Source: Alphaproteobacteria bacterium
GTDB lineage: Bacteria; Pseudomonadota; Alphaproteobacteria; Thalassobaculales; Thalassobaculaceae
Assembly: GCA_022822665.1 (NCBI GenBank)
Contig: JAJEAR010000074.1
Location: forward strand, 1-64,000
Length of the DNA stretch: 64,000 bases
Direction: 5' to 3'
This document shows positions 7,564-55,714 of the stretch, piece after piece. The position numbers and the translations under genes are program-made. The notes under the pieces were generated by a model, which did no database searches, was not told the DNA's origin, and was given only the letters and a program-made list of their open reading frames with translations. Each line of letters begins with the position of its first letter. The first letter of the stretch is position 1.

Positions 7564-8090
7564 ACAACAGGCAGCACTCCGGCTCCCGCCGCTTCAGATG
7601 GGGTGGAAGCGGCCCCCAACCGGACTTCCCGGCAAGCCCCGGACCACGATCCGAGGCAACCGGCGAGGGGTGCTTTCCACCGACAATCGATACAGGATCC
7701 GGTCAATGCCCGCCGGATTCTTCGCCGTTCGCAACCGCGGGCACGCCCTCCACGATCTGTTGACAAGCCTAGGCCCTGTGCCAAAATGGCCCATGGTGAA
7801 CAGGACCTCCGCAAGGCGGCTCTGGACTAATGAAGGCACCACGACCGGGGGTGCCGTCGGCACCTCTGAGCCAGTTGAATCGCTGCGGCCCGCACAAACC
7901 GATACTGCGCTCGGAACCTGGGTATCCGAGTGGCCTTCTGATGCTGGCTCCGGTTTTGTCGCTTGCGACGACAAGGATACAGCCAGCCGCCGAGCCTTCG
8001 AAGCTTCGCTCAAGGACTGCACGCCGGGCTGTATCACGGGGCCGAACCGGTTCAAGGATCGGGGTCCGTCCACCGCTACCGCAAAGTTCC
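7564..8090. other. No recognisable gene
   Basis: An open frame runs through this stretch and into dctP, but it lacks family signatures and a ribosome-binding site. It is best read as non-coding flank. A small hairpin GGTGCC-GTC-GGCACC lies near 7850-7864. Confidence 0.45.
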
Positions 8091-8116
8091 CCGGAGTTGA
8101 CCCCAACCAACTCCGG
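8091..8116. promoter_or_regulatory. Operator-like inverted repeat upstream of dctP
   Basis: The perfect 9-bp arms CCGGAGTTG (8091-8099) and CAACTCCGG (8108-8116) have an 8-nt spacer. They overlap the predicted -35 box and most of the promoter spacer of the TRAP operon, so a bound repressor would block RNA polymerase. The regulator is not in the window. Confidence 0.5.
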
Positions 8117-8124
8117 AATACAAT
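8097..8124 (+). promoter_or_regulatory. Predicted sigma-70 promoter for dctPQM
   Basis: -35 TTGACC (8097-8102), 16-bp spacer, -10 TACAAT (8119-8124). Transcription would start near 8131, leaving a very short leader before the ATG at 8141. The GGAGGT ribosome-binding site (8131-8136) would lie at the extreme 5' end. Confidence 0.4.
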
Positions 8125-8140
8125 CGAACCGGAGGTCAAG

Positions 8141-9298
8141 ATGATCATTACTCGCAAACCTTGGACGTGCGCAACCCTTGCACTTGCCTCCCTTGCTTTT
8201 GCTGCAACAGCACAGGCGGACTTTGTCGACGAGTGGCTTGAACTGCAATATCCGGGTCAGGTGCTTCCTGTTACTACAACCCAGGCACCTCTTCAGCTGA
8301 AGTTCTCTCATCCGGCAAATCCGACTTCCTTGATTGGACCTTGGTGGGAAAGGAACGCGAAGCTTTTGAGCGGCCTCACCGACGGAAAGATGCAATTCGA
8401 GGTTTACGGCGGAGCCACGCTTCATGGACCCCTCGACGGTTTCAAGGCCGTCCGCGGCGGGGTCAGCGACTATGCGATGTGCTATTCCAACATGGAGCCA
8501 CAACGAAACCTGCCGATGAGCAAGGTGTTCGAGCTGCCCTTCCTGGTATCGCCCAACCCGCAAGCGGCCAACAGGGTATTCATCGAATTGGCTCCGAAGT
8601 ACTTCACGCCCGAATATGAGGGCCGGGGAGTCTATTTCGGTAACAAGCACTTTATGGGGTACCAGGACATATACACGAAGAAACCTGTACGCACCCTGGC
8701 AGATCTGAAGGGTATGAAGATTGCCGCCCAGGGCACGTCCCCGGAGATTGGCGAAGCCCTCGGTGTCGTGTTCGTCAACATGCCGTTCACAGAGATATTC
8801 GCTGCTTTGCAGCAAGGAGTAGTGGATGGAACAATGTGGGTCGATGCAGGTGTTGTGGCTTGGAAGGCCTACGAAGTTGTCAAGTATGTGACACGCCTGA
8901 ACTTGAGTGCGTTGCACCTCGACCAATGCTTCAGTCAGGAAATGTTCGATTCGCTCCCGTCCGATCTGAAGCAAATCTTCTATAACAATCAACAGCAAAT
9001 CCCATTCATCTTCACTCAGCGGGGTTACGTCAACAAGGTGGAGGAAAACGAACAGATATACCGGGATAACGGTATGGAAATCATCCACCTGGAACCAGCC
9101 GCGCGCGAAGAATTCAAGCAGGCGCTGCAGCCGGTCATTGAAAACTGGATTGAGACCTATGAGGCTGAAGGCTTGCCGGCTCGCCAGCTTATCGAGGATA
9201 TCGAGCGACTCAATGCCAAGTATGGCGACATGAGCCCCGAGGAGCTGTTCAGACTCACCGTGGACAACCCCGTACCCGGCCTCGTGTCCGGCATGTGA
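8141..9298 (+). CDS. dctP: TRAP transporter solute-binding protein (DctP family)
   Basis: Periplasmic solute-binding subunit of a tripartite ATP-independent transporter, 385 residues. The start at 8141 follows GGAGGT and gives a Sec signal peptide (MIITRKPWTCATLALASLAF, cleavage likely after AQA). The long frame extending upstream is not part of the gene. The DctP fold is visible in FSHPANPTS, the ADLKGMKIAAQGTSPEIGEAL segment that contributes the ligand-binding region, and QQGVVDGTMW. Ligands of this family are mostly carboxylates; the specific one is unknown. First gene of dctP-dctQ-dctM. Codon third positions are visibly less GC-rich than in the core genes, suggesting transfer. Confidence 0.92.
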   Translation: MIITRKPWTCATLALASLAFAATAQADFVDEWLELQYPGQVLPVTTTQAPLQLKFSHPANPTSLIGPWWERNAKLLSGLTDGKMQFEVYGGATLHGPLDGFKAVRGGVSDYAMCYSNMEPQRNLPMSKVFELPFLVSPNPQAANRVFIELAPKYFTPEYEGRGVYFGNKHFMGYQDIYTKKPVRTLADLKGMKIAAQGTSPEIGEALGVVFVNMPFTEIFAALQQGVVDGTMWVDAGVVAWKAYEVVKYVTRLNLSALHLDQCFSQEMFDSLPSDLKQIFYNNQQQIPFIFTQRGYVNKVEENEQIYRDNGMEIIHLEPAAREEFKQALQPVIENWIETYEAEGLPARQLIEDIERLNAKYGDMSPEELFRLTVDNPVPGLVSGM

Positions 9299-9365
9299 GG
9301 TGCTGCGGGGCGGTAGGGTGGCCGTGTGAGTGCGGCTGCCCGGCTGCTCCGGGGGCGGGTGACTG

Positions 9366-9884
9366 TTGATCAGGATTCTTCACGCAGCAGAGCGCGCGAC
9401 ACGGACGCTGCACTCGGTGTCCGCCTATCTCGCCGTGCCGTTGATGATCGCGCTGGTGATCTATGACGTGTTCCTGCGATATGTAGTGGGTGACCCCTCG
9501 GTATGGGCCAACGAGGTCAGTGCCGTTCTTCTCATCCTGGTTGTGTTTGCAACGCTGCCGCATGTCACTATCCGGCGCGACCATCTGGGCAACGACATGG
9601 TCTATCTCATGCTCGGAAGCCGGGGCAAGCGTCTGACGGCGGGCGCCGGTTATCTGTGCGGCGCGGTTTTCGGGGGCGTTCTTTCCTATCGCAGCTTTAC
9701 TGCGATGCTGGATGCGCATCGGTACAACGAGGGCACACAGAACGTCGATTTTCCCTATTGGCCCTTCTACGGGGTAATGACAGTCAGTGCCGCTCTCGTC
9801 GTTGTAATTTGTATCCTGCAGATAGCGTTCGCGGTATCCGGCGGCCCGGTTGATGCCAGATCCGAACCGAAGGACGAAGGCTAG
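9366..9884 (+). CDS. dctQ: TRAP transporter small permease (DctQ family)
   Basis: Small membrane subunit of 172 residues with four predicted transmembrane segments (about 20-40, 50-70, 92-110 and 130-155). The family motif VFLRYVVGDPSVWANE is present near residues 35-50, including the Arg and the acidic residue that follow TM1. The start is a TTG at 9366; no better ATG or GTG lies in frame. It sits 67 bp after dctP and 5 bp before dctM. Confidence 0.9.
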   Translation: MIRILHAAERATRTLHSVSAYLAVPLMIALVIYDVFLRYVVGDPSVWANEVSAVLLILVVFATLPHVTIRRDHLGNDMVYLMLGSRGKRLTAGAGYLCGAVFGGVLSYRSFTAMLDAHRYNEGTQNVDFPYWPFYGVMTVSAALVVVICILQIAFAVSGGPVDARSEPKDEG

Positions 9885-9889
9885 GGCAA

Positions 9890-11191
9890 ATGGACCCCTT
9901 TTTCATCGGCGTCGCGGCCATCGTTGTCATGATAGCCTTGATTATCTGGGGCATTCCGATCGCCTTCAGTTTGGTGATTGTCGGCATTGCGGGAAATGTA
10001 GTGCTTCTCGGTCCCGCGCAGGCTGCCACACAACTGCAGCTGATAGCTTGGGAAACTGGCACCAATTTCCTTCTCATTGCAATTCCACTTTTTATTTTCA
10101 TGGGTCAGCTCACTTATCATACCGGTTTGGCTACAGACCTCTATGAAGTGGTATACAAGTGGTTGGGCAGAATGCCCGGCGGAGTTGCCGTTACGGCTAC
10201 CGTCAGTTCTGCCGGGTTTGGAGCTGTGACAGGTTCCAGTGTCACCACGATCGCCACGATGGGTAGTATGGTGATGCCCGAAATGAAGCGTTACGGGTAT
10301 GATTCCAGACTTGCGTCCGGAAGTGTGGCGTCAGCGGGAGCGCTCGCAATTCTAATTCCGCCTTCCATCCCCATGGTTGTCTATGGCGTATGGACAGAAA
10401 CCTCCATTGCTCAGCTATTCATTGCTGGTATTATCCCGGGAATCATCATGGCGGTCCTGTTCGCGGCATACATCGTTGCTCGATGCGTATTGACGCCGGA
10501 AATGGGTCCACGAGGACCGGGTTTTACGTGGACAGAGAAGTGGAAATCTCTGGTCAAACTTCTTCCGGTAATTTTGATTTTCGTTGCGGTGCTTGGTGGG
10601 ATATACGGTGGAATCGTCACTCCGACAGAAGCCTCTGCCGTAGGGTGCGCCGCAGTGGCGTTGGTCGCACTTGCAATGCGTCGCCTGACCCTGGAAAGCG
10701 TGAAGAAGGCTCTGGATCAGGCAGCAAACATCAGTGGCGTTCTCTTTTTTGTCGTTATCGGTGGAATTTTCATCAGTCGATTCCTGGTATTGACTGGGCT
10801 GACGCCGGGCGCTGTCGACCTGATTATCGGTCTCGATCTGGGCACGTACGGTGTCATAGCCATGTTGGTCATTCTTTACCTGGTTCTCGGGACCTTCCTG
10901 GAGACCTTCGGACTGCTTGTGCTCACCCTTCCCTTTGTGATGCCGGTTTTCATCGATCTCGGTATCGACAAGGTGTGGGTCGGTATCTTTCTTGTTCTGA
11001 TGATCGAGATGGCTCTTATCACGCCGCCGGTGGGCCTCAATGTCTTCGTGATGCACAAGGTGGCTCCTGACATCGGACTGCCCACGATTTTCCGGGGTTC
11101 CATCCCCTTTGTCCTGATTACGCTCGGCGCGGTTGCGCTGTTTACACTCCTCCCCGAACTGGTGCTCTGGTTGCCCAGGCAGATGAACTGA
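9890..11191 (+). CDS. dctM: TRAP transporter large permease (DctM family)
   Basis: Large permease of 433 residues that carries out sodium-coupled uptake with DctP and DctQ. About 12 hydrophobic segments are visible. Family hallmarks include GIPIAFSLVIVG near the N-terminus, the GFGAVTGSSVTTIATMGS loop around residues 105-125, IPPSIPMVVYG, the central GIYGGIVTPTEASAVG, and the C-terminal ITPPVGLNVFVMH. Base composition is lower in GC, like its two neighbours. No sensor kinase, regulator or catabolic enzyme is linked to the operon. Confidence 0.95.
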   Translation: MDPFFIGVAAIVVMIALIIWGIPIAFSLVIVGIAGNVVLLGPAQAATQLQLIAWETGTNFLLIAIPLFIFMGQLTYHTGLATDLYEVVYKWLGRMPGGVAVTATVSSAGFGAVTGSSVTTIATMGSMVMPEMKRYGYDSRLASGSVASAGALAILIPPSIPMVVYGVWTETSIAQLFIAGIIPGIIMAVLFAAYIVARCVLTPEMGPRGPGFTWTEKWKSLVKLLPVILIFVAVLGGIYGGIVTPTEASAVGCAAVALVALAMRRLTLESVKKALDQAANISGVLFFVVIGGIFISRFLVLTGLTPGAVDLIIGLDLGTYGVIAMLVILYLVLGTFLETFGLLVLTLPFVMPVFIDLGIDKVWVGIFLVLMIEMALITPPVGLNVFVMHKVAPDIGLPTIFRGSIPFVLITLGAVALFTLLPELVLWLPRQMN

Positions 11192-42313: not shown

Positions 42314-42691
42314 GGTGCGCGGCCTCCCCCCACGGGGTGGTGATTCTCTACCCGTGAATAGAACCGGTACTCTCCCGATGATCAAGGAGCGCTACGGCAA
42401 ATGGCTCCCAGGCAACCTCCATGCGCTGGATGGTTCGCCGACCTGCCCGTGGCATGTCGCCGACCGGGAGAGGGGACCGCCGTCGTGATTCCAGTTCATC
42501 TGTCCCAGGATCGAGTCGATGACTGTCACCCGATGTCCATGGCGGTCTTTCGCCGTTGGTGAGGCGATCGGTAGCGCGACCTCCGGCCCGATCGTGCCCG
42601 GCTCATCGACGGCCGGGTCGACACGCGGTCCCGTGGTGCGTCCCGCCGGTGCTGCGGTAGGCTCGTGCTGGCAATCCGCGCGGAGCCGTCC
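42314..42691. other. Intergenic region between divergent LLM genes
   Basis: The region should hold the promoters of both flavin-dependent oxidoreductase genes. I could not identify a convincing -35/-10 pair or operator. Confidence 0.35.
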
Positions 42692-43732
42692 ATGACCGGG
42701 TTCAACGTCTTCCTGTCGTGCCACCACTTTTCCGATCCCCGGAGCCACGCGCAGCTCTATGCCGACCTGGTCGAGCAGGCGCGCCACGCCGAGGCGCTGG
42801 GCTATGACGGTCTCTCGGTGCCCGAGCACCACTTCGTCAACCTCCTGATGAACCCGGACCCGCTGCTGTTCGCACTTCATGTCGCGAACGCCACCGAGCG
42901 GCTGCCGGTCACCACGGCGGTGGTGGTCCTGCCGTTCCACGACATGCGCCGCTTCGCGGGCCAGGCGATGCTGGCTGACATCCTGTCTGGGGGACGCATC
43001 GAACTCGGCGTCGGGCGCGGCGCCTTTGCCTACGAGATGGAACGCATGGGGATCGACCCTTCCGACACGCGCGCGAAGTTCGATGAATCGCTCGCCGTGC
43101 TGGAGGCGCTGTTCGACGGCGAGGACGTGTCCTGGCGGGGCGCCTGGTACGATTTCGGCCCCCTCACGGCGATGCCGCGTTCGCCGCGCCGCCCGAAGCT
43201 CTGGATCGCCGCGCTCGGACCAGAGGCGATCTACCATACCGCACGCCGGGGCTACGACGTGCAGACCACGCCACTCAGGGGCGGCCACGCGCTGGCGGTC
43301 AAGCAGATGGAAGCGTTCCATCGGGGTGCCGACGAGGCGCTGGCGCAGACCGGCCGGCGGCCGCGGATGTCGATGCTGCGGTCGGCCTATGTCGGGACCG
43401 ACGAAGCCGACGTGCGGGAAAAGGCGAGGGTGGCCCACGAATACGGCCTGCGCTTCGCCAACGGATTCGAGACGCCGGGTACGGTGACGAGGGGCGAGCT
43501 GGAGATCGTCGGGACCGACTTCGGCTTCGAGGACGCCATGCGCCAGATCCTGGTTGGAACGACGAACGAGATCGTGGACAGGATCGGCGCCTATGCCGAA
43601 CTCGGCATGGACGAGATCGCGCTCGACATGCACCTCGGCATCCCCCGCCACGCCGACGTGATGGCTTCCATGGAGCGTTTCGCCGCCGACGTCATGCCGC
43701 TGTTCCGCGACAGCGGGACAGGTGCCGCCTAG
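42692..43732 (+). CDS. LLM-class flavin-dependent oxidoreductase
   Basis: Second luciferase-like monooxygenase, about 346 residues from MTGFNVFLSCHHFSD (42692). The signatures ARHAEALGYDGLSVPEHHF, FAGQAMLADILSGGRIELGVGRG and the SPRRPKLWIAALG segment place it in the bacterial luciferase-like family. It is clearly different in sequence from the divergent neighbour. Its substrate is unknown. Confidence 0.88.
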   Translation: MTGFNVFLSCHHFSDPRSHAQLYADLVEQARHAEALGYDGLSVPEHHFVNLLMNPDPLLFALHVANATERLPVTTAVVVLPFHDMRRFAGQAMLADILSGGRIELGVGRGAFAYEMERMGIDPSDTRAKFDESLAVLEALFDGEDVSWRGAWYDFGPLTAMPRSPRRPKLWIAALGPEAIYHTARRGYDVQTTPLRGGHALAVKQMEAFHRGADEALAQTGRRPRMSMLRSAYVGTDEADVREKARVAHEYGLRFANGFETPGTVTRGELEIVGTDFGFEDAMRQILVGTTNEIVDRIGAYAELGMDEIALDMHLGIPRHADVMASMERFAADVMPLFRDSGTGAA

Positions 43733-44163
43733 AACGCCCCCGCGGTTGGACTGGCGTTGCCGATGACCGTGCCGTCGGCCCAATCTGGGAGCAAGGAGAG
43801 TGCTGGCTTCCACTTCCACCTCGGGTCCGGCATCTCGCAAAACGCCGCGTAGCAGAAGGGAACGCGATGAGCACGATGCCTCGGTCGACGCATCGGATTT
43901 TCGTGCGCTCGCGCCCGCACAAAAGTGCCAACGCAGTGACGCAACGATCGCAGAAGTAACGCTTCACCGACACCCCGGCCCTGCAGCACTGTTTCGAGCC
44001 GGCGTCTCGTCCCTGATTGCCTGGCTCTGCAAATATCTGCGCAATATTCGATCCCGGCCCGAGAGTTGCTCGCTCCGTGCTCAATCTCTATCGCCACATG
44101 GCGTTGTCGGTCGCAAAGTCGGAATTTCCCGCTCGACGAACTGCTGCATCACCAGTGCCTGGC
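43733..44163. other. No recognisable gene
   Basis: The stretch lies 3' to both the LLM gene and the nuclease-like gene. Short minus-strand frames have a few Cys-rich segments but no family I can name, and no terminator with a clear stem and T-tract was seen. Confidence 0.35.
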
Positions 44164-44829
44164 TCACCCGAGAAAGGACAGGAGAGCATGGTGCAACTCG
44201 ATCGAGGGCCTCCGCTCGCGAGGATGATTGCTTTGCCACGCCCATGATTCGGCGATCAGGGTCGACGGTTCCAGTCTCTCCGGCTCCCGCGATCTCCCTC
44301 GCAGGTAGAGGTTTACCCGGTTTACGGCAGCGGTTCCGTCGCCGGCGATCAGGTATCCTACCATGAACCCGACCGGATGGTTCCCGCTGTACTTTCCGGT
44401 CCGGAACCGGTCCATGCCTTCCACGACATATTCGCGGCACAGATTGGAATCGTTGCCGGAGAGACGCTTGCATTCGATAATGGCGTGTGGGTCGTGCTCC
44501 TGGAAACGCCGGAATATACCGATGCTGAAGACTGGAATGTCGACGCGTCCGTCGGGAGTGGAAAGGTCCGGGCGAGATTTGGACTCGGTTCCCGGAAGTA
44601 CCACGATATCTTTTCCCAACGCCAACTCTTCAGTTTTCAAGGCCTCGCGCATGCCCTCTCTCAGGCGCTCCGTCAGCGGCACTTCCAGGAGGTGAGGGCC
44701 TGTATCAGGCCTCCGGCGCGCGATCATCCAGCCTGCCCTGATGACGCGCATGACCGCCGGCGCGAGCTCGCGCGCGAGTTCGCTGAACGGTGTGCCCGCG
44801 GTGTCTGTTTCGTAGCGTGGTAACCTCAC
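44164..44829 (-). CDS. Putative PD-(D/E)XK nuclease-like protein coupled to N6-methylase
   Basis: Protein of 221 residues that I do not recognise as a named family. A candidate restriction-endonuclease-fold active site is visible: Asp97 in DGRVDIPVF, then Glu119-Cys-Lys121 (HAIIECKRL), the ExK that follows at the usual spacing. A downstream block YVVEGMDRFRTGKYSG and GFMVGYLI looks conserved-type rather than random. The start overlaps the methylase stop as ATGA, so the two products are made together and probably act together. Nuclease activity is inference from the motif and context. Confidence 0.6.
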   Translation of the reverse strand: MRLPRYETDTAGTPFSELARELAPAVMRVIRAGWMIARRRPDTGPHLLEVPLTERLREGMREALKTEELALGKDIVVLPGTESKSRPDLSTPDGRVDIPVFSIGIFRRFQEHDPHAIIECKRLSGNDSNLCREYVVEGMDRFRTGKYSGNHPVGFMVGYLIAGDGTAAVNRVNLYLRGRSREPERLEPSTLIAESWAWQSNHPRERRPSIELHHALLSFLG

Positions 44830-47780
44830 GCAGAGCCTCCGGAGAAGCTCTCCGCGATTACGGCGTCCGCGTCCTCCAGCCCCGATACGGCCATCCAGTA
44901 CCGGCGGGCGGACGGCTTGATGATGACCACTTCGTCAGGACCGTACAGCTTGAGCGTGCGCAAGCCAGACAGGTGTTTGCCGAGTTCCACTTTCAGCTGC
45001 GTTCCGATTCGGTTCAGAACGGTCCTTAGATTTCCCTCCGGCCTGACAACCCGTTCCGGCGCGGTACTCTCGCGATCCTCAAGTACGAAACGAACAATGC
45101 GAAGCGGTGCGTCTCCGGGTAGATCGAATATCTCCGCGCCGATGCGACGGCGGTTGCCTGCAGAGAGCCAGACATCGACTGCCATGCGGAAGGCTCTTGA
45201 GTAGTCGTGAAGATGCGGATCGGTGTGGGCCGGCGCTGTTGAAGCAACTCTGCCCTTCTCCCATTGCCAGGTCGCCCGAAACAAGCCGTCACGGGCGACG
45301 ATGCGGTCGGCCTCGTCCAGCTCGTACAGGTCAAAGACAGTTTCATCGAGTTCTGAAATCCGGGGATCATCATCTTCCGGTGGCTTCTGCCCGAATTGAC
45401 TGACAAGCCGAACGAGGCGTCTGCCGGCTTCGGATCGCTCCGCCCGCTCGAGATCCGGTACGGGAATCACCAAGACATCCTTGGGCAACACCCGTCGCAT
45501 CGAGAGTCCGAACGTCGAGCCGGTCATCAGGAAGTACCAGGAGGCAAGCGATGACCTCAGGATTCCGGCCAGGAGGCAGGCAATCTGCGAATATCCGGCC
45601 GGCAAGGCAGCTCCGAAAAAGGCATTCGTGAATACGAGATCTCGCTCGGACACGGCGGTGACGAGTCGGCCATCGGCCGCCATGAATTCTTTTGCGAGGA
45701 GTAGCGGCGCACGATAAACATCCCGTCCTCTCGGTCGCTCGGCGGTCTCTTCGTCGTAGGGTGCCAACCCATCGGGTACGCGGAATGGCATGAGGTTGTT
45801 CTTGGTCAAATACGGCAGGCCGTGCAGAAAACTCGAATCCCGGCTCCGATCGCCCACCGTCAATCCGTATTCGAGCCCGGCACCGAGCCGCTTCAGTATC
45901 TCACCGAACGTCTCATGGCTTTTTGTCAGCCTGTCCAGCAACACCAGGTCGCGCCGCGAACCGAAGAACGCGGCCTTCAAGAGTTGCGATGGCTCCGCTG
46001 TCGGCAACGCAAGGATATCGTCCGGGGCGATTTCGAATGTGTGGCTTCGAGCACCGGCTGGCGACCATGGAACCTGTACGGTTTCAATCTCCGCGCGGTC
46101 AGCGTCACGATGGCGAGCGTAGAGAACGATGGCAGGCAAATTGCTGCGCGGGAACAGCCAGCTCGACTGGTTTGAAAGGTTGACCAGTGTCAATGGAGAT
46201 AGCTTGTCGATCAGTTCTTGCCTGGCCGCGATACCCGTGTTGCTGCGTGCAAAGAACTGAACTGCACTCAGGACCAGTCCGAACCGGGTTCGTTCCGACG
46301 CGAAATCCATCGCCCTGAACGCAAAGTTCAGGCTCTGCCCACGCGGCGCACGGGCCCTGGGCTGCGTGGCCCTGGCGCCTTTCCCGCCGTAGCTCCAGGG
46401 CGGATTGCCGACGATGAGATCAAACGTAGAAGGGGCGCCTTCCGTGATCGGCGCGGCGGGCCCGCCCATCGGTGGCCCGATCCTCAAGGCGTCGTCGACG
46501 AAAAGCGTCCGCCCGATCAAGGGATCGAACCTCAGCGCTTCCGGTGGTTGCGGATCCGGATCAAGTTCCAGCGCGGCCAGATACAGACTGAACGCGGCGA
46601 CCCTCACGGCGGCTTCGCTGATGTCGACACCATAGATCTGTTCGTTCAATGTTGCGCGGATCATTTCGCGACTCGGCGGACCTTCGCCGGAACGGCGATC
46701 AACCAGTCTACGCAATGCTTCGACAAGGAACACGCCGGATCCGCAGGTGAAGTCGAGCACGGTTTCCGATCCGGTCAGGCCGTGCATCACTTCGTCGAGA
46801 ACCAACGAGACAAGCGACATTCTCGTGTAGAACACGTCCCTGGAGGTGTCAGGCTTCCTGGCCTCGCCGCTCCCGCGCACGTCGCGCTTCCCGGATGTGG
46901 AAAAGGAATGAGAGAACTGCTCGTAGATCGAACTGATCAATTCCACCGGTATGACATCGAACTGATAGGGAAAGAGGCTTGTCTGTCCGTCGGGGCCTAC
47001 CGCCTCGAGAAAGTCGGCAACGTGTCCGAGATACGCGGGCCCAGGTACGGACAGGTTATCCGGTGGAAACATGTCGCCGTTGAACGTCCTTTGGAGCCAC
47101 GCAAAGAGATTTTCGGTGGCAGATCTATTGCGCAATATGTGGGAAAACCTGCCCTCCCCGCAGATGTCTTGCAGAAGTTCCACGGTAAGGATGTCGCGGT
47201 CGACCAGATACTGGATAAATATCGATCGGCCGATCAATCCTTGGGCGTTCAGGCGTCCCAGTCCTGCCGCTTCGAGAGTGCGTTCGAGTTCGAGAAGGTC
47301 CGACAGAAGCTGTCGATCGACGCTGGTCCTCCGATTCACTGGACGGGCCCTCGATTCCGACCAGAACCGGCCGGTCTCCATGGCGAGGCGACCGGCAAAT
47401 GCATCGAGTCTTTCGAGGTCGGACTCGATCAGGCTGAAGGAATCCAGTCGATGCGTGGCGGCGTCGTCGGTCGTCCTTGGGCGCCCGAAACCGTTATAGA
47501 GATCGATCCCTTGGGGCGAGACGACCCATAACAGCGGGGCGAATCCCCGATTCCAAACCGCCCGCCGCCACCTGGCCACGGTTTCGGCACTCGGCGGTAC
47601 GGGTTCGTCCTTGAAATAAACCGTGAGCTCCGAGCGGCTTCTCCACGAGGCGTCGGGAGCAAAATCCCCGCGGCCGACGTCATCGCGCGCATCCTGGTCC
47701 AGCAGTACGCCGGGCGCAGGCACCCGATTTGCCATGTACCCCGTCTGTTCGAGCACGTCATGCAGGGTTGGGGGAGTCAT
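44826..47780 (-). CDS. Large N6-adenine DNA methylase (type IIG/BREX PglX-like)
   Basis: Protein of 984 residues. An N-terminal domain (1-150, with WNRGFAPLLWVVSPQGIDLYNGF) and a helical part (150-300) precede the methylase core. The SAM motif I is VLDFTCGSGVFL (about 341-352) and the catalytic motif IV is NPPW (459-462), typical of gamma-class N6-adenine methylases. A long C-terminal half (600-984) probably recognises DNA. No nuclease motif is evident in its N-terminus; the ExK-bearing partner is encoded downstream with an ATGA overlap. The likely role is restriction or another anti-phage defence; the target sequence is unknown. Confidence 0.85.
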   Translation of the reverse strand: MTPPTLHDVLEQTGYMANRVPAPGVLLDQDARDDVGRGDFAPDASWRSRSELTVYFKDEPVPPSAETVARWRRAVWNRGFAPLLWVVSPQGIDLYNGFGRPRTTDDAATHRLDSFSLIESDLERLDAFAGRLAMETGRFWSESRARPVNRRTSVDRQLLSDLLELERTLEAAGLGRLNAQGLIGRSIFIQYLVDRDILTVELLQDICGEGRFSHILRNRSATENLFAWLQRTFNGDMFPPDNLSVPGPAYLGHVADFLEAVGPDGQTSLFPYQFDVIPVELISSIYEQFSHSFSTSGKRDVRGSGEARKPDTSRDVFYTRMSLVSLVLDEVMHGLTGSETVLDFTCGSGVFLVEALRRLVDRRSGEGPPSREMIRATLNEQIYGVDISEAAVRVAAFSLYLAALELDPDPQPPEALRFDPLIGRTLFVDDALRIGPPMGGPAAPITEGAPSTFDLIVGNPPWSYGGKGARATQPRARAPRGQSLNFAFRAMDFASERTRFGLVLSAVQFFARSNTGIAARQELIDKLSPLTLVNLSNQSSWLFPRSNLPAIVLYARHRDADRAEIETVQVPWSPAGARSHTFEIAPDDILALPTAEPSQLLKAAFFGSRRDLVLLDRLTKSHETFGEILKRLGAGLEYGLTVGDRSRDSSFLHGLPYLTKNNLMPFRVPDGLAPYDEETAERPRGRDVYRAPLLLAKEFMAADGRLVTAVSERDLVFTNAFFGAALPAGYSQIACLLAGILRSSLASWYFLMTGSTFGLSMRRVLPKDVLVIPVPDLERAERSEAGRRLVRLVSQFGQKPPEDDDPRISELDETVFDLYELDEADRIVARDGLFRATWQWEKGRVASTAPAHTDPHLHDYSRAFRMAVDVWLSAGNRRRIGAEIFDLPGDAPLRIVRFVLEDRESTAPERVVRPEGNLRTVLNRIGTQLKVELGKHLSGLRTLKLYGPDEVVIIKPSARRYWMAVSGLEDADAVIAESFSGGSA

Positions 47781-47924
47781 GCGGTTCTCTGCCTAGTGGT
47801 GAACCTGTGGCCGATCACGAGACGGCCGGCTGCGAACCGGCGCTGGAAGACCTGTGCAGATCCGGTGGCAAGGAACCCGGCCAAGGAGGAACGGGATGCT
47901 CATCACGAATCAAGTGTAACATAC

Positions 47925-48851
47925 TCAGAATTGAGGTTGGCGATGACGATACGCCAACATGTTGTGTGTGAACGCATGCGGGCGAAGAGTCGAAACCACC
48001 TGTGCACATGGCTCCGGCTTGATCAACATGTTGTAGATCATGGGTTGGGCCTTGATGGCGAGGGTGAACAGTGAATGGAAGGCGGCGTGTCTGATTCCGT
48101 GCCGATTGAACCGGAGGACGAATTCGTTGAGGCAAGCCTGCAGGTGCTTGTGTCGCAACCCGTGGTAGACGCCTCGTGCTCGCCCCTTGACGTTGGAATA
48201 GATCTGGCGGATCCAGGGGAAAACGAGAACGGTGGGGGTGCCCCCGACGACATGCACCTCGTGTGGGTCTGAGGGAACCACGGCGTAGCCGTGCCAACCG
48301 TCGGTCTTGATGGTGGCGTCGGAACTGGCGGCGGTTTCGAGGAACAGCCCACCAATGTCGTCGGCTCCGTACGAGGCGATTTCGGCCAATCGTAGACGGT
48401 CGGGCGTGTTTCCATCTCCGGGTTCGAGTGCGCCGATCATCAACATCTTGCCGTCGTGGCTGCGGTCCTGCCCACTGGCGGGTGGATCGTTCCTGGACCG
48501 GAAGGAAAGGCTGACCTCGTCGACTACAACCAGGCCTGACAACGGGTTGCGCTTAGGGTCAACCGTCGCGGAGCCCAGCGTGTGGGCAAGCAGCCAGGCG
48601 CTCCGGTACCGGATGGTCAGTGGCAGCGCGCCGGCGTGCAGCACCGTTCCGGCCGTCACCGACGTTTGCCGGCCGCTCCCGGCACATTCGAAGGCATGGG
48701 GCTTGCCGCGCAATGCCCATCCCTTGTCATGACTGCAATTGGGACAGACGAGACCGTCCGGCCAGCGCATCTCGATCAACCAGGCGGCACAGGCGTCATC
48801 GTCTGGGAACGGACGTTGGAAAGAGGGATGGCTGTCTGGATACGTCGGCAT
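47925..48851 (-). pseudogene. IS1595-family transposase, internally deleted
   Basis: ISXO2-like transposase reading frame of 308 residues. It has an N-terminal zinc ribbon half (CPNCSHDKGW), the first catalytic Asp in VVVDEV, the second in IKTDGWHGYA, and the C-terminal HKHLQACLNEFVLRFNRH. Between the LHAGALPLTI and RYRSAWLLAH segments about 30-40 residues expected in the family are absent, without a frameshift. The usual DET triplet after the first Asp is DEV. It is therefore probably an inactive copy. Terminal inverted repeats were not identified. Confidence 0.75.
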
Positions 48852-49425
48852 TCGAGATCTCTACGGTCTAAGAACGAACAGGGAACATTTTAGGCGTCCC
48901 GAACCCGGTTTGCAACCACAACATCTCGTGGTTGAACACCAAGACTGGAACCAGGTGAATAAGCTGCGAGTCGAAAACCGGTCATGAAGCTCTTCCTGCA
49001 ACCGAGACTGACGCTTGCCGACTCGCGACCCAGGCTGCCAGCTATCGTCTCATCCTGTTCGATGTCCGTAAGCGGCTACGTCGATCTCGCCGCCCGCCGG
49101 GCCTCCATGCTGCCGATCGTGGAGATGGCAGCGAAGCCGGTACATATTCGGGAACCGTTCTACTTGTATAAGCCTTCGGGCCTTGGAAATAACACCGGGC
49201 GGACCACCCGCAAGGAGACGACCTGCCGCTCCGTCTCAACGGGTGCCTTGCAGGCCGGTGTTGCGGGCTGGAGTGCGTCACGAACCGACTGCTCGGGCGC
49301 CGTCATGCGACGCCAACGCACACCTGACACGGCAGGGGCACCGCCGATGGTCCGGTGCGTTTCCCGGGGCCCCGGAATCGGGGCGGAACAGGCCGGCAAT
49401 TCCCCGATTACGGGGACCGCAAACC
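48852..49425. other. No recognisable gene
   Basis: A 6-bp hairpin AACCAC/GTGGTT lies at 48914-48933. I see no supportable coding sequence. The stretch ends at the gyrA promoter and probably marks the right edge of the ssb-gyrA islet. Confidence 0.4.
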
Positions 49426-49454
49426 TTGCCCGCTGCCGCGACATATGGTATGTT
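49426..49454 (+). promoter_or_regulatory. Predicted sigma-70 promoter for gyrA
   Basis: -35 TTGCCC (49426-49431), 17-bp spacer, -10 TATGTT (49449-49454). It lies about 93 bp before the gyrA GTG start and is the nearest good match in the region. Confidence 0.5.
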
Positions 49455-49546
49455 GCCGTTATCTTACCGACGAGACCTGACATTCCCGCCGAGTGCACGC
49501 GGTGCGGGCTGTCGTCGACATCCGACACCTTCCGGGCAGGCATCGC

Positions 49547-52273
<2,727 letters not shown>

Positions 52274-52312
52274 ACCCCCGAGCCCAGGTTCCCCAGATTC
52301 CCGGAGACAGGC

Positions 52313-52828
52313 ATGCGAACCGGCGTCTACCCAGGCACGTTCGACCCGATTACCAACGGGCATATCGACATCATCCGTCGTGGCAGCAAGCTGGTCGACA
52401 GGCTGGTGGTCTCGCCGGCCCGCAACATCGGCAAGTCCCCCATGTTCGGGACCGACGAGCGCGCGGAAATGGTGAGCGACGAGGTCGCCGTCATCGTCGA
52501 AGAGAACCGGCGGGCCGGGATCGAGTGCGACATCAGGGTCACCTCGTTCGACACCCTGCTGATGCACTTCGTCGAGCAGTGCGGAGCGCGGTTCATCATC
52601 CGCGGACTGCGCGCGGTGTCCGACTTCGAGTACGAGTTCCAGATGGTTGGCATGAACGCGCGTCTCAACCCGCAGGTGGAGACCATCTTCCTGATGTCGT
52701 CGGAACGGCACCAGTTCATCTCCTCGCGCCTGGTCAAGGAGATCGCGCGGCTCAACGGCGAGATCCGCGAGTTCGTCTCTCCGCGGGTCGAGGCACATGT
52801 GAGGGCGGCGATCGCGCGCGGGAACTGA
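52313..52828 (+). CDS. coaD: Phosphopantetheine adenylyltransferase
   Basis: Coenzyme A biosynthesis enzyme that makes dephospho-CoA from 4'-phosphopantetheine and ATP, 171 residues. The nucleotidyltransferase motif GTFDPITNGHIDII is near residue 10, with the catalytic His. RGLRAVSDFEYEFQM and SSRLVKEIARLNG, the latter providing the ISSR-type motif, confirm the family. gyrA-coaD adjacency is common in alphaproteobacteria. Confidence 0.96.
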   Translation: MRTGVYPGTFDPITNGHIDIIRRGSKLVDRLVVSPARNIGKSPMFGTDERAEMVSDEVAVIVEENRRAGIECDIRVTSFDTLLMHFVEQCGARFIIRGLRAVSDFEYEFQMVGMNARLNPQVETIFLMSSERHQFISSRLVKEIARLNGEIREFVSPRVEAHVRAAIARGN

Positions 52829-52876
52829 CGGTCCCGTTGACCACGTGCCCGGCCTTCCATAGTGTGCGGCCCGGTC

Positions 52877-52952
52877 GGGCGCGTAGCTCAGTTGGTAGAG
52901 CAGCTGACTTTTAATCAGCGGGTCACAGGTTCGAATCCTGTCGCGCTCACCA
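52877..52952 (+). tRNA. trnK: tRNA-Lys (UUU)
   Basis: Seventy-six nucleotides with encoded CCA. The acceptor GGGCGCG pairs with CGCGCTC (one G-U pair). The D arm is AGCTCAGTTGGTAGAGC. The anticodon stem GCTGA/TCAGC holds a CTTTTAA loop with anticodon TTT. The T arm is ACAGG-TTCGAAT-CCTGT. Its 3' end overlaps the convergent DUF938 gene by 6 bp. Confidence 0.97.
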
Positions 52953-53585
52953 TCCCGTGTCCGGCGTGCGGTTCCGGTAGACGGCGAGGAGGTTGTCCGA
53001 CGGCATGCCGCAGATCCTGTCGAGGCCGAGTCCCGCCCGAACAGCGTGTTCGGTGACCTCGTCGAGATCCCGTACGCCCCACTGGGGATCCTGGTGACGC
53101 AGGGCGGTATCGAAGCGCGCGTTGCCGGGCCCGGTGTGGCGCCCTGACCGCATGAACGGCCCGTAGATGCACAGCGGGCCGCCGTCCGGCAGGACACGCG
53201 CCGCGCCCGCGAGCAGGCCGAGAGTGACCGGCCACGGTGCAATGTGGAGCAGGTTGATCGCGACGATGGCGGCAATGCGGTCAGATGGCGAGACGTCCCA
53301 GGACGGCGAAGCGGCATCGATGTCGCGGGGCGGGAGCGGGGCATCCCCGGGAACCGAGGCGGTCCACGCGGTGATGCTGGCGCGCTGGCCGGGATCCGGG
53401 TCGCTGGGAAGCCAGGCAAGGGGTGCCAGGGCAGGGGCGAACACGGCTGCGTGCTGGCCGGTACCGCTCGCAATCTCGAGCACGGTGCCCGAGTGCGGGA
53501 GCACGGTGCGCAGCACGCCCAGGATCGCGGCGCCGTTGCGCCGCGCCGCCGGGGCATCAAGCATGGGAGAGTGTTCTCTGACCAT
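52947..53585 (-). CDS. DUF938 family SAM-dependent methyltransferase
   Basis: Predicted class I methyltransferase of 212 residues, from MVREHSPMLDAPAARRNGAAI (53585). The SAM-binding motif VLEIASGTGQHAAVF is near residues 35-49. AIVAINLLHIAPWP and the ARVLPDGGPLCIYGPF segment follow the family pattern. The substrate is not known. Its stop codon is supplied by bases inside the tRNA-Lys CCA end on the opposite strand. Confidence 0.88.
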   Translation of the reverse strand: MVREHSPMLDAPAARRNGAAILGVLRTVLPHSGTVLEIASGTGQHAAVFAPALAPLAWLPSDPDPGQRASITAWTASVPGDAPLPPRDIDAASPSWDVSPSDRIAAIVAINLLHIAPWPVTLGLLAGAARVLPDGGPLCIYGPFMRSGRHTGPGNARFDTALRHQDPQWGVRDLDEVTEHAVRAGLGLDRICGMPSDNLLAVYRNRTPDTGW

Positions 53586-53636
53586 GGCGCGACATCTATC
53601 CGAACCGCTCGTGATACCGCAACCGGGAGTCAGGCG

Positions 53637-54119
53637 ATGCTTCGCAGGCTGAAGGCGGCCCTTGAGGCGCATCGGGCGAGCGAACCGGCTGTTCCTTCCG
53701 TGTCGACCGACCCGGCGCGCCTGGCCTGCGCCGCCCTGCTGACCAGGGCGGCGTGGCTGGATGGCCACCTTTCCGAGAGCGAGGAGGCTGCGGTCGAGCG
53801 CACCATGGTCGACCGGTTCGGGCTCGGGCCGGACGAAGTGCGCGCCATCCTTGCTGAGGCCGAGGACGACCTCGACCGCAGTGTCGACATCTACCGCTAC
53901 ACGCGGGCGCTGCGCGGTGCCTTCGACGAGAAGGAACGCATCGAGCTGCTGGAGATGCTGTGGGAAGTCGTGTACGCGGACGGCGTGGTCCACGCATACG
54001 AGGCCCAGCTGATGCGACGCCTCGCCGGGTTGCTCTACGTCGAGGACCGTGACAGCGGTACCGCGCGCAAGCGCGCACTCGCGCGCCTGGGACTTGCCGG
54101 GGACCCGGCCAGCGAGTAG
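53637..54119 (+). CDS. TerB-like tellurite-resistance family protein
   Basis: Cytoplasmic helical protein of 160 residues starting at the ATG at 53637. Two related halves carry acidic, TerB-type metal-binding loops: [20 protein letters not shown] in the first and [26 protein letters not shown] in the second. The function of such stand-alone TerB proteins is unknown. It is divergent from the DUF938 gene and upstream of fdxA. Confidence 0.88.
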
Positions 54120-54163
54120 GAGACGCGGGCGCTGATCGCAGCAGGGGTCGGAAGGGCTGGAGA

Positions 54164-54502
<339 letters not shown>

Positions 54503-54532
54503 GCCCGATCGGCCGGGCGTGGCTCTCCAGGA

Positions 54533-55714
54533 TCAGCCGTCCGCGAGCCATTCCTCGAGGACCGTGCCCGCGTGCTCGCCCAGCAGCGGCGCCGTGCCGA
54601 CCGCTGGCGGCGCGTCTCCGAAACGGACCGGCCACCCGCTCATGACATAGTCCCCGATGACGGGATGGTGCATGGTCTGCCGGATCCTGCGGTCCTCGAA
54701 GCTGGCATCGTCGGCCAGTTCCCGGGTGTCGAGCACCGCTCCTGTCGGAACCGTGGCTTCGCCGATCAGGCGCATAGCGGTGTGCTTGTCGTGCCCGCGG
54801 GTCCACTCGGCCACCAGCTGATCGACCTCGTCGCGCCGTTCGCGCCGTGCCTCCGGCGTGCTGTAGCGGGGATCGCCGATCAGGTCCTCGCGACCCATTA
54901 CCCGGAGCAGCCGGTCCCAGTGTTCCGGGTTCGACGGGCTGGTGAAGACGTAGACGTAGTCGTTCGGACCGCCGCCCTGGCAGGGGTAGACGCCGATCGG
55001 CGGGTGGGCGCCACCCACGGTCCGCGATCCAGCCCGGGGCGCGGGCAGTCCGTCGGTGCGTTCCATGTAGGCGAACGCGTTGCGGATGAAGTGGAGGATG
55101 GCATCCTGCATTGCTACCTGCAGGTGTTCGCCCCGGCCGGTTCGCATCCGGCGCACGTAGGCGCCGAGAATCGAGACCGCCATCAGCATGCCGGTTCCGG
55201 TGTCCCCGATGGTGGCGCCGGGCTTGCACGGGGGTCCGTCCTCCTGGCCGGTGACCGACATCAGCCCTCCGCACGCCTGGGCGATCATGTCGAAGGCAAG
55301 GTTCTTCTCGTAGGCGGTTCCGGCACCGAAGCCCTTGATCTGGCAGTAGATGATGCCCGGGTTGATCGCGCGCACGACGTCGTATCCCAGCCCGAGGCGT
55401 TCGATGGCACCGGGAGCGAAGTTCTCGATCATCACGTCGGCACGGGCAAGCAGTGCCTTCGCGGTCCCGATGCCGTCGGGGTCCTTCAGATCGAGCGTGA
55501 TCGATCGTTTCGAGGCGTTGTACTGCAGGAAGTACAGCGCATCCTGCTCCGGGTCCGTGCGGCCCAGGGACCGGCCCGGGTCGCCGCGGTTCGGATTCTC
55601 GACCTTGACCACGTCGGCTCCGAGCCAGGCCAGCGCCTCGGTGCAGGACGGGCCGGCTTCGAACTGGGTGAAGTCGAGGATCTTCAGGCCCGCGAGGCAG
55701 TCTTCGCCGTTCAT
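54533..55714 (-). CDS. Class III (CaiB/BaiF) CoA-transferase
   Basis: CoA-transferase of 393 residues. The N-terminus (LAGLKILDFTQFEAGPSCTEALAWLGADVVKVENP) matches the family. The catalytic Asp is in GDTGTGMLMAVSILGAY. The C-terminal NDYVYVFTSPSNPEHWDRLL segment is also typical. It exchanges CoA between carboxylates; the pair of substrates cannot be told. It is followed on the same strand (upstream) by an EamA transporter and an amidase. Confidence 0.92.
   Translation of the reverse strand: MNGEDCLAGLKILDFTQFEAGPSCTEALAWLGADVVKVENPNRGDPGRSLGRTDPEQDALYFLQYNASKRSITLDLKDPDGIGTAKALLARADVMIENFAPGAIERLGLGYDVVRAINPGIIYCQIKGFGAGTAYEKNLAFDMIAQACGGLMSVTGQEDGPPCKPGATIGDTGTGMLMAVSILGAYVRRMRTGRGEHLQVAMQDAILHFIRNAFAYMERTDGLPAPRAGSRTVGGAHPPIGVYPCQGGGPNDYVYVFTSPSNPEHWDRLLRVMGREDLIGDPRYSTPEARRERRDEVDQLVAEWTRGHDKHTAMRLIGEATVPTGAVLDTRELADDASFEDRRIRQTMHHPVIGDYVMSGWPVRFGDAPPAVGTAPLLGEHAGTVLEEWLADG

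Follow-up and report, generated by a model that had tools for sequence, protein, structure and literature searches.

Here, we describe two overlapping genes in a window of 64,000 nucleotides (contig JAJEAR010000074.1 of assembly GCA_022822665.1, from an alphaproteobacterium of the Thalassobaculaceae) which, as judged from sequence comparisons and structure models, probably encode a split, motorless restriction-modification (R-M) system resembling the Type IIG enzymes. A first-pass annotation of this DNA had noted open reading frames (ORFs) of 984 and 221 residues at 44164-47780, and both are present there on the minus strand. The large gene, encoding a predicted DNA methyltransferase (MTase; P0001), comes first, and the small gene, encoding a nuclease-like protein (P0002), lies downstream of it (Table 1; L-numbers denote the loci of relatives and G-numbers denote genomes). 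The stop/start overlap of the two genes, recorded in that annotation as ATGA, is 4 nt long and reads GTGA on the coding strand. With the GTG start taken as residue 1, the numbering given there for D97, E119 and K121 of the small protein is correct.

No family for P0002 was found in Pfam, NCBIfam, PADLOC or PHROGs by sequence and profile searches, and when 24 members of the group were scanned, no Pfam family was matched by more than 2/24 and no PADLOC family by any. A relative in the PDB was not found by profile search, and a single-sequence search of the PDB returned one weak ribosomal-protein match. Eight divergent homologues, 21-28% identical to P0002, share ten invariant columns (E49, T53, D97, E119, K121, Y134, F142, M156, Y159 and H214), and E49, D97, E119, K121, F142, M156 and H214 are still invariant in a set of 48 non-redundant homologues. 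The features expected of a PD-(D/E)XK nuclease, i.e., the catalytic aspartate, the ExK and an upstream glutamate, are therefore conserved in the small protein in 48/48 cases.

The structure model of the small protein (mean predicted local distance difference test score, pLDDT, 82.1; predicted template modelling score, pTM, 0.83; weak at residues 1-15 and 83-91) contains a helix at 49-65, strands at 75-77, 98-102 and 116-124, a helix at 128-139 and a strand at 153-162. This is the alpha-beta order of PD-(D/E)XK proteins, with D97 just ahead of a strand and E119 and K121 inside the next one. When the model was compared by VIA-align, the best match was OkrAI (Z 6.2), with BglII and BstYI at 5.8 each; the top 20 rows (Z 4.5-6.2) also include McrC, EcoT38I, PaqCI, NgoMIV, Card1, Can2 and MunI. 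We take 15/20 of these rows to be PD-(D/E)XK enzymes, and unrelated rows, e.g., Rep15, are found among the 20 as well. Foldseek gave no significant match in BFVD. Structure prediction had been proposed at first pass as a check, and the predicted fold is not unlike PD-(D/E)XK in its order of elements and its weak matches, although no Foldseek match was significant. Fold search alone being insufficient, we assign the small protein to PD-(D/E)XK from motif and fold jointly, and this assignment is likely. The possibility that it is a specificity (S) subunit was set aside since its catalytic residues are invariant.

Table 1. Positions in the window of the two genes, their parts and the surrounding features
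Feature	Position	Strand	Remark
MTase gene	44826..47780	-	984 aa, ATG start
Nuclease-like N-terminal domain without ExK	47436..47780	-	MTase residues 1-115
Connector, helical	46881..47333	-	MTase residues 150-300; helices in model, start of Type I modification (M) subunit matches
S-adenosylmethionine (SAM)-binding / NPPW catalytic core	45960..46829	-	MTase residues 318-607; Pfam, conservation, structural match
Target recognition domain (TRD), block-swapped among relatives	45546..45938	-	MTase residues 615-745
Conserved C-terminal domain	44829..45314	-	MTase residues 823-984; W962 in 42/42, R960 in 41/42
Stop/start overlap coupling the two genes	44826..44829	-	coding strand reads GTGA
Small nuclease-like gene	44164..44829	-	221 aa, GTG start
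PD-(D/E)XK nuclease-like protein, proposed detached restriction (R) subunit	44164..44829	-	221 aa; residues and model
E49 codon	44683..44685	-	helix preceding core; 48/48
D97 codon	44539..44541	-	48/48
E119-C120-K121 codons	44467..44475	-	E and K in 48/48
IS1595-type transposase gene, outside the module	47925..48851	-	where relatives often have a MerR-like gene
Accessory islet missing from same-genus genome G001	43779..49349		genome comparison

Architecture of the large protein

By its predicted activity, the 984-residue protein is a gamma-class N6-adenine DNA methyltransferase with Type IIG architecture. The SAM motif and the NPPW reported at first pass are both in place, the former as VLDFTCGSGVFL at residues 341-352 and the latter at residues 459-462. 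P0001 is matched by the Pfam families N6_Mtase (6.8e-10) and Eco57I (3.7e-7), and its best PADLOC model is REase_MTase_IIG (E 5.7e-38, residues 72-823). D343, G347, N459, P461 and W962 are invariant in the conservation set of 42 non-redundant homologues of at least 900 residues. The protein begins with a nuclease-like N-terminal domain (N-domain), followed by a helical connector, the MTase core, the TRD and an extra C-terminal domain (C-domain); up to the TRD, this is the same order as in the Type IIG enzymes BpuSI, DrdV and MmeI and the Type IIB enzymes BsaXI/BcgI. P0001 thus has the gamma-class MTase with integral TRD and the helical connector of Type IIG enzymes, while a catalytic nuclease domain at the N-terminus of the same chain is missing.

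The structure model of the MTase was built from a 20-sequence alignment (mean pLDDT 78.9, pTM 0.73). Its best structural match is CamA (Z 23.0), and the MTase and TRD part is matched best by the adenine MTases CamA and M.BseCI, which are about 550-580 residues long and end before the C-domain; these matches begin after the N-domain. To our knowledge, CamA and M.BseCI stand alone, without a nuclease partner. The alignment with DrdV spans residues 1-820 (615 aligned residues, Z 19.6), and therefore the N-domain occupies the position of the IIG nuclease domain. Type I M subunits are matched from about residue 150 onwards (starts 149-156), and residues 823-984 lie mostly outside the structural matches.

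Unlike in Type IIG enzymes, the N-domain here is devoid of ExK, the intact site lies on a separate gene and there is an additional C-domain. In the window copy D43 and K57 are present, and Y55 replaces the acidic residue. Across the 42 homologues, residue 55, the position of the ExK acid, is acidic in none (0/42), and D43 and K57 are found in 26/42 and 24/42, respectively; in alignment A5 (20 sequences) D43, F56 and K57 are invariant. There are zero D..[DEQ]xK strings in residues 1-115 of P0001. Because the N-domain lacks both the acidic residue 55 and D..[DEQ]xK, we do not file the pair as an IIG enzyme proper, and the conservation pattern indicates that the domain is probably a structural remnant that lost its ExK. 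A profile comparison of the small protein with the N-domain or the C-domain found no homology, hence an origin of the nuclease from the lost N-domain is unsupported.

One could still imagine an MTase that is a full IIG enzyme in its own right: the N-domain would still cut, its acidic residue having moved to another position, and the small nuclease would be an auxiliary second effector. Relocated acidic residues occur in the PD-(D/E)XK superfamily, and the invariance of D43, F56 and K57 in A5 would agree with this explanation, as would an ExK on a later strand, seen in three relatives (see below). We find it quite improbable, however, since D43 and K57 are kept in only part of the 42 homologues and residue 55 is never acidic, whereas the separate protein has the full site in all 48.

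Gene linkage and target recognition

The linkage between MTase and nuclease is near-absolute, and the pair recurs in dozens of bacteria. A survey of neighbourhoods was among the checks proposed at first pass, and it found the nuclease homologues linked to the methylase almost without exception. In a class sample of 385 genomes, the nuclease profile A1 matched 10/385 genomes and the MTase profile A2 (E<=1e-40) the identical 10/385, the two genes being adjacent in 9/9 besides the window's own. In a phylum sample of 398 genomes, 6/398 were matched by the nuclease profile A4 and 7/398 had the MTase. The four new shared genomes all have adjacent genes, and in the seventh genome (G584) the nuclease, missed by A4 and found with A1 at 2.8e-35, lies directly downstream, so that an adjacent nuclease is present in 7/7 genomes having the MTase. 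A single-sequence search of a sample of relatives (n=98) gave 2 matches, including the own genome.

Among genome contigs, 25 loci were found via the nuclease, and the MTase lies directly upstream in 24 of them, in some with a broken frame; at L057 the upstream MTase is reduced to a C-terminal remnant. According to the record titles, these loci span alpha-, beta- and gammaproteobacteria and one Gemmatimonadota metagenome-assembled genome. Fourteen plasmid records were inspected, 13 taken from 49 matched by the MTase and one from 5 matched by the nuclease; 13/14 contain the pair, the exception (L087) being a 210-residue MTase fragment. No relatives were found in 50,697 phage records. Viral contigs gave no match when searched with P0002 and a single one (L064) with A3, on a contig starting at the nuclease gene, so that linkage cannot be judged there; this record opens exactly at the nuclease homologue (1-660), and the next gene, encoded on the opposite strand, is that of a serine recombinase. 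Since dozens of divergent relatives show the same catalytic residues and the same linked genes, we set aside a chance pairing of the two genes.

When 41 systems are compared in 820 pairs, the nuclease identities correlate with the MTase identities at 0.98, but these pairs are not independent, and the value therefore shows only that both genes travel together. Two relatives, L019 and L020, are more informative: they are 88% identical in the nuclease, 94% in the connector, 97% in the core and 92% in the C-domain, versus 59% in the TRD, and TRD windows at residues 641-661 fall to 37-40%. The closest TRDs are those of L046 for L019 and of L048 for L020. Across the 13 systems of this clade, the partial correlation between nuclease and TRD, controlled for core, connector and C-domain, is 0.07 (641/2000 permutations were as high), and that between nuclease and C-domain, controlled for N-domain, core and connector, is 0.58. 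It seems from these comparisons that the nuclease is indifferent to which TRD it serves, and the replacement of the TRD beside a conserved core and nuclease suggests that the MTase, and not the nuclease, reads the target. The nuclease may be in contact with the C-domain, which is a candidate docking site for it.

These data bear on whether the two genes form an ordinary Type II R-M pair, in which the 221-residue protein would be an independent site-specific endonuclease of the type of OkrAI or BglII, and the role of the large protein would be limited to methylating the same site. Such a pair would account for the size of the small protein and for its best, albeit weak, structural matches being the Type IIP enzymes OkrAI, BglII and BstYI; moreover, the accessible text of PMC4081073, which gives the IIG and IIH definitions, describes gamma-class MTases that accompany separate Type II endonucleases. 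Nevertheless, we consider it rather unlikely, as the nuclease of L019 and L020 stayed at 88% identity while the TRD was replaced, and the divergence of the nuclease goes along with that of the other MTase parts rather than with that of the TRD.

Broken MTase copies speak in the same direction. The MTase frame is interrupted at L021/L062, L024, L060 and L091, with the nuclease frame open in each, and at L057 the nuclease frame is open beside the end-only remnant. On an Agrobacterium plasmid (L003, 11980-14199) the MTase is shorter by about 289 residues at its N-terminus, so that the nuclease-like domain is gone, and is 93% identical to that of L059 beyond the lost part; the nuclease is intact. 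A cell would have difficulty in keeping a free sequence-specific endonuclease in the absence of the cognate MTase, and these six loci with an intact nuclease and a broken or truncated MTase should be lethal if the small protein were such an enzyme. A nuclease kept beside a broken MTase also argues against strong post-segregational killing, and thus against an epigenetic or plasmid-maintenance role in which the nuclease mainly acts on cells losing the element and not on phage. The presence of the pair in nearly all inspected plasmid loci, and of integrases and resolvases near some relatives, would agree with such a role, which would involve the same split R-M mechanism and differ in role only; we regard it as very unlikely.

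Proposed mode of action and related systems

In the split Type IIG-like system that we propose, the large protein would recognise a DNA sequence through its TRD and methylate adenine at N6, in this way marking self DNA. The PD-(D/E)XK protein would be the restriction subunit and dock on the large protein, perhaps at the C-domain. The docked nuclease would cut at or near unmethylated sites, with the target not being chosen by the nuclease itself, and the complex could thereby restrict phages. The N-domain, which is the cutter in ordinary IIG enzymes, would be left as a structural remnant, and no motor ATPase is encoded. The first-pass annotation had already put forward that the nuclease-like part is a separate coupled subunit, and the linkage, the invariant residues and the fold support this; of the two options it named, a split IIG-like restriction system is better supported than a distinct two-gene module. 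The degenerate N-domain, the TRD swap with an unchanged nuclease and a MerR-like third gene (described below) are points beyond that annotation.

Several observations weigh against the split system. Foldseek gave no match for the small protein in the PDB at E<=0.001, and the note that accompanies VIA-align rates a Z of about 6 as weak. A loose pattern, D-x6-30-[DEQ]xK, scanned over the N-terminal 115 aligned residues of the MTases, occurs, though scattered, in 11/42 N-domains (versus 48/48 small proteins); L083, L086 and L090 have a common ExK on a later strand of the N-domain, and the window copy still has D43 and K57. The TRD block replacement is clearest in one pair, L019/L020, and the correlation between nuclease and C-domain may merely reflect adjoining DNA stretches. 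Finally, apart from L003 and L091, which are complete plasmids, the broken MTase frames may stem from assembly errors.

According to the accessible text of Loenen and colleagues (PMC3874165), Type IIG enzymes permanently carry their cleavage domain at the N-terminus, and Type I enzymes have a separate R subunit with a motor. Like Type I systems (HsdR, HsdM, HsdS), the pair has R apart from M, and its connector and core match Type I M subunits. Unlike in Type I, the R-like protein of 221 residues has no room for a motor ATPase, the TRD lies within the M protein, and the ORFs beside the pair include neither a motor HsdR nor a separate HsdS gene. The pair fits neither Type IIG nor Type I as these are defined in that text. 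It may represent a hitherto unnamed R-M organisation, to which we would give an even chance: a gamma-class MTase with an integral TRD and a dead IIG nuclease domain, accompanied by a PD-(D/E)XK R subunit that is detachable and motorless and, in many cases, by a MerR-like controller. Such an organisation would stand between Type I and IIG, the fused nuclease having been replaced in trans after its decay, and a TRD swap would change specificity with the nuclease untouched.

Our searches of an open-access library found no paper describing this pair, as judged from titles and the beginnings of abstracts. The nearest published idea among those we met is that of PMC4389544, in which HVO_A0006 and HVO_A0237 of Haloferax volcanii are separate PD-(D/E)XK and IIG-like MTase genes, and a split IIG complex is suggested. 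As described in the accessible part of that paper, the HVO nuclease is a fragment with homology to the N-terminal region of IIG enzymes, which the HVO MTase does not have, and both genes have transposase or integrase neighbours of their own. Unlike in the HVO pair as described there, the MTase analysed here retains a degenerate N-domain, homology between that domain and the nuclease was not detected, and the two overlapping genes form a conserved operon.

In public annotation the MTases appear as 'N-6 DNA methylase' or, in PADLOC, as a fused IIG enzyme, and the partner as 'hypothetical protein'. If the split-system reading is true, a widespread R-M family has a cutting subunit that has so far escaped notice. 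The family would then illustrate one of the steps in the conversion of fused and multi-subunit restriction enzymes into each other, and a small detachable nuclease guided by a swappable TRD would offer a simple model of the coupling of methylation sensing to cleavage in restriction complexes.

Genomic surroundings

Several relatives are situated close to genes of Hachiman, SIR2, AbiE, DarT, TIR, a DUF1156 MTase, Type I HsdR or an SNF2 helicase, a context that favours the proposed R-M system, and these neighbours vary by locus, as in defence islands. Of ten flanking ORFs run against PADLOC, 5 had no match. At L005 (15844-19974) and L055 (6711-10811), Eco57I/MmeI-like methylases of about 1370 residues lie directly downstream of the pair, placing two R-M-like systems side by side.

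In a BREX- or Pgl-like exclusion system, methylation would mark self and the small nuclease would be a conditional or abortive effector, not cutting at recognition sites. The MTase does resemble PglX/BrxX in sequence and fold, and next to several relatives there are BREX-related genes or other genes of defence. Its PglX score, however, is 34.9 bits versus a curated cut-off of 400, PglZ, BrxC and BrxL were not seen in the annotated neighbourhoods of relatives, and the defence neighbours vary, so that we hold such a system to be unlikely. DISARM DrmMI, which like PglX/BrxX has a related gamma-class MTase core and scores far below its curated cut-off, was matched at 5.1e-6 only, across the core MTase motif, and no DrmABC set was seen beside the module. 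The first-pass annotation had named adjacent BREX or DISARM core genes in relatives as evidence that would overturn it; no recurrent set of either kind was found in the annotated neighbourhoods. With scores under the cut-offs and partner genes not recurrent, membership in BREX or DISARM was set aside. A BREX survey offers a parallel, as its accessible part describes inactive restriction endonuclease domains and auxiliary restriction endonucleases in BREX-related systems (PMC12839542).

In many relatives the MTase gene is preceded by one for a MerR-like protein of about 150-220 residues, usually with a 4-nt overlap. When six of these proteins were tested, the best match to Pfam MerR_1 was 1.2e-5; two passed the cut-off and two had no match. 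L008, L085 and L089 have an XRE-like gene instead, according to annotation or sequence, and several relatives have no such gene. The MerR-like winged helix-turn-helix protein may act as a controller, which the window copy would have lost or never had. The gene is absent from the window copy, and no remnant was found by profile search; tblastn gave many chance-level matches, the best of which (L005, E 0.003) lies on the opposite strand and far upstream. In the closest relative, L039, an AlbA_2/HATPase_c_4 protein (1596-2948) overlaps the MTase start and replaces the MerR-like gene.

Directly upstream of the MTase gene in the window lies the IS1595-type transposase gene, around which no convincing terminal inverted repeats were found, and after it comes gyrA, as read from its translation. 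The description of the site as an accessory islet, made at first pass, is backed by comparison with G001 and by a lower guanine-plus-cytosine (G+C) content, which is about 60% here and roughly 63-70% in the surrounding DNA. G001 and the window match at 94% at 42597-43779 and 49349-55359, with 2989 bp of other DNA between. At the same site in G001 (L079, G001:C8, 2985-5974) we recognised, by eye, HigB/HigA-like ORFs and a C-terminal piece of an integrase. Given this different accessory DNA in G001, the position next to gyrA seems to be a hotspot of integration. Elsewhere in the window, at 8001-11000, the G+C content falls to 53-58%, compared with 64-65% on either side, which marks a second possible accessory stretch.

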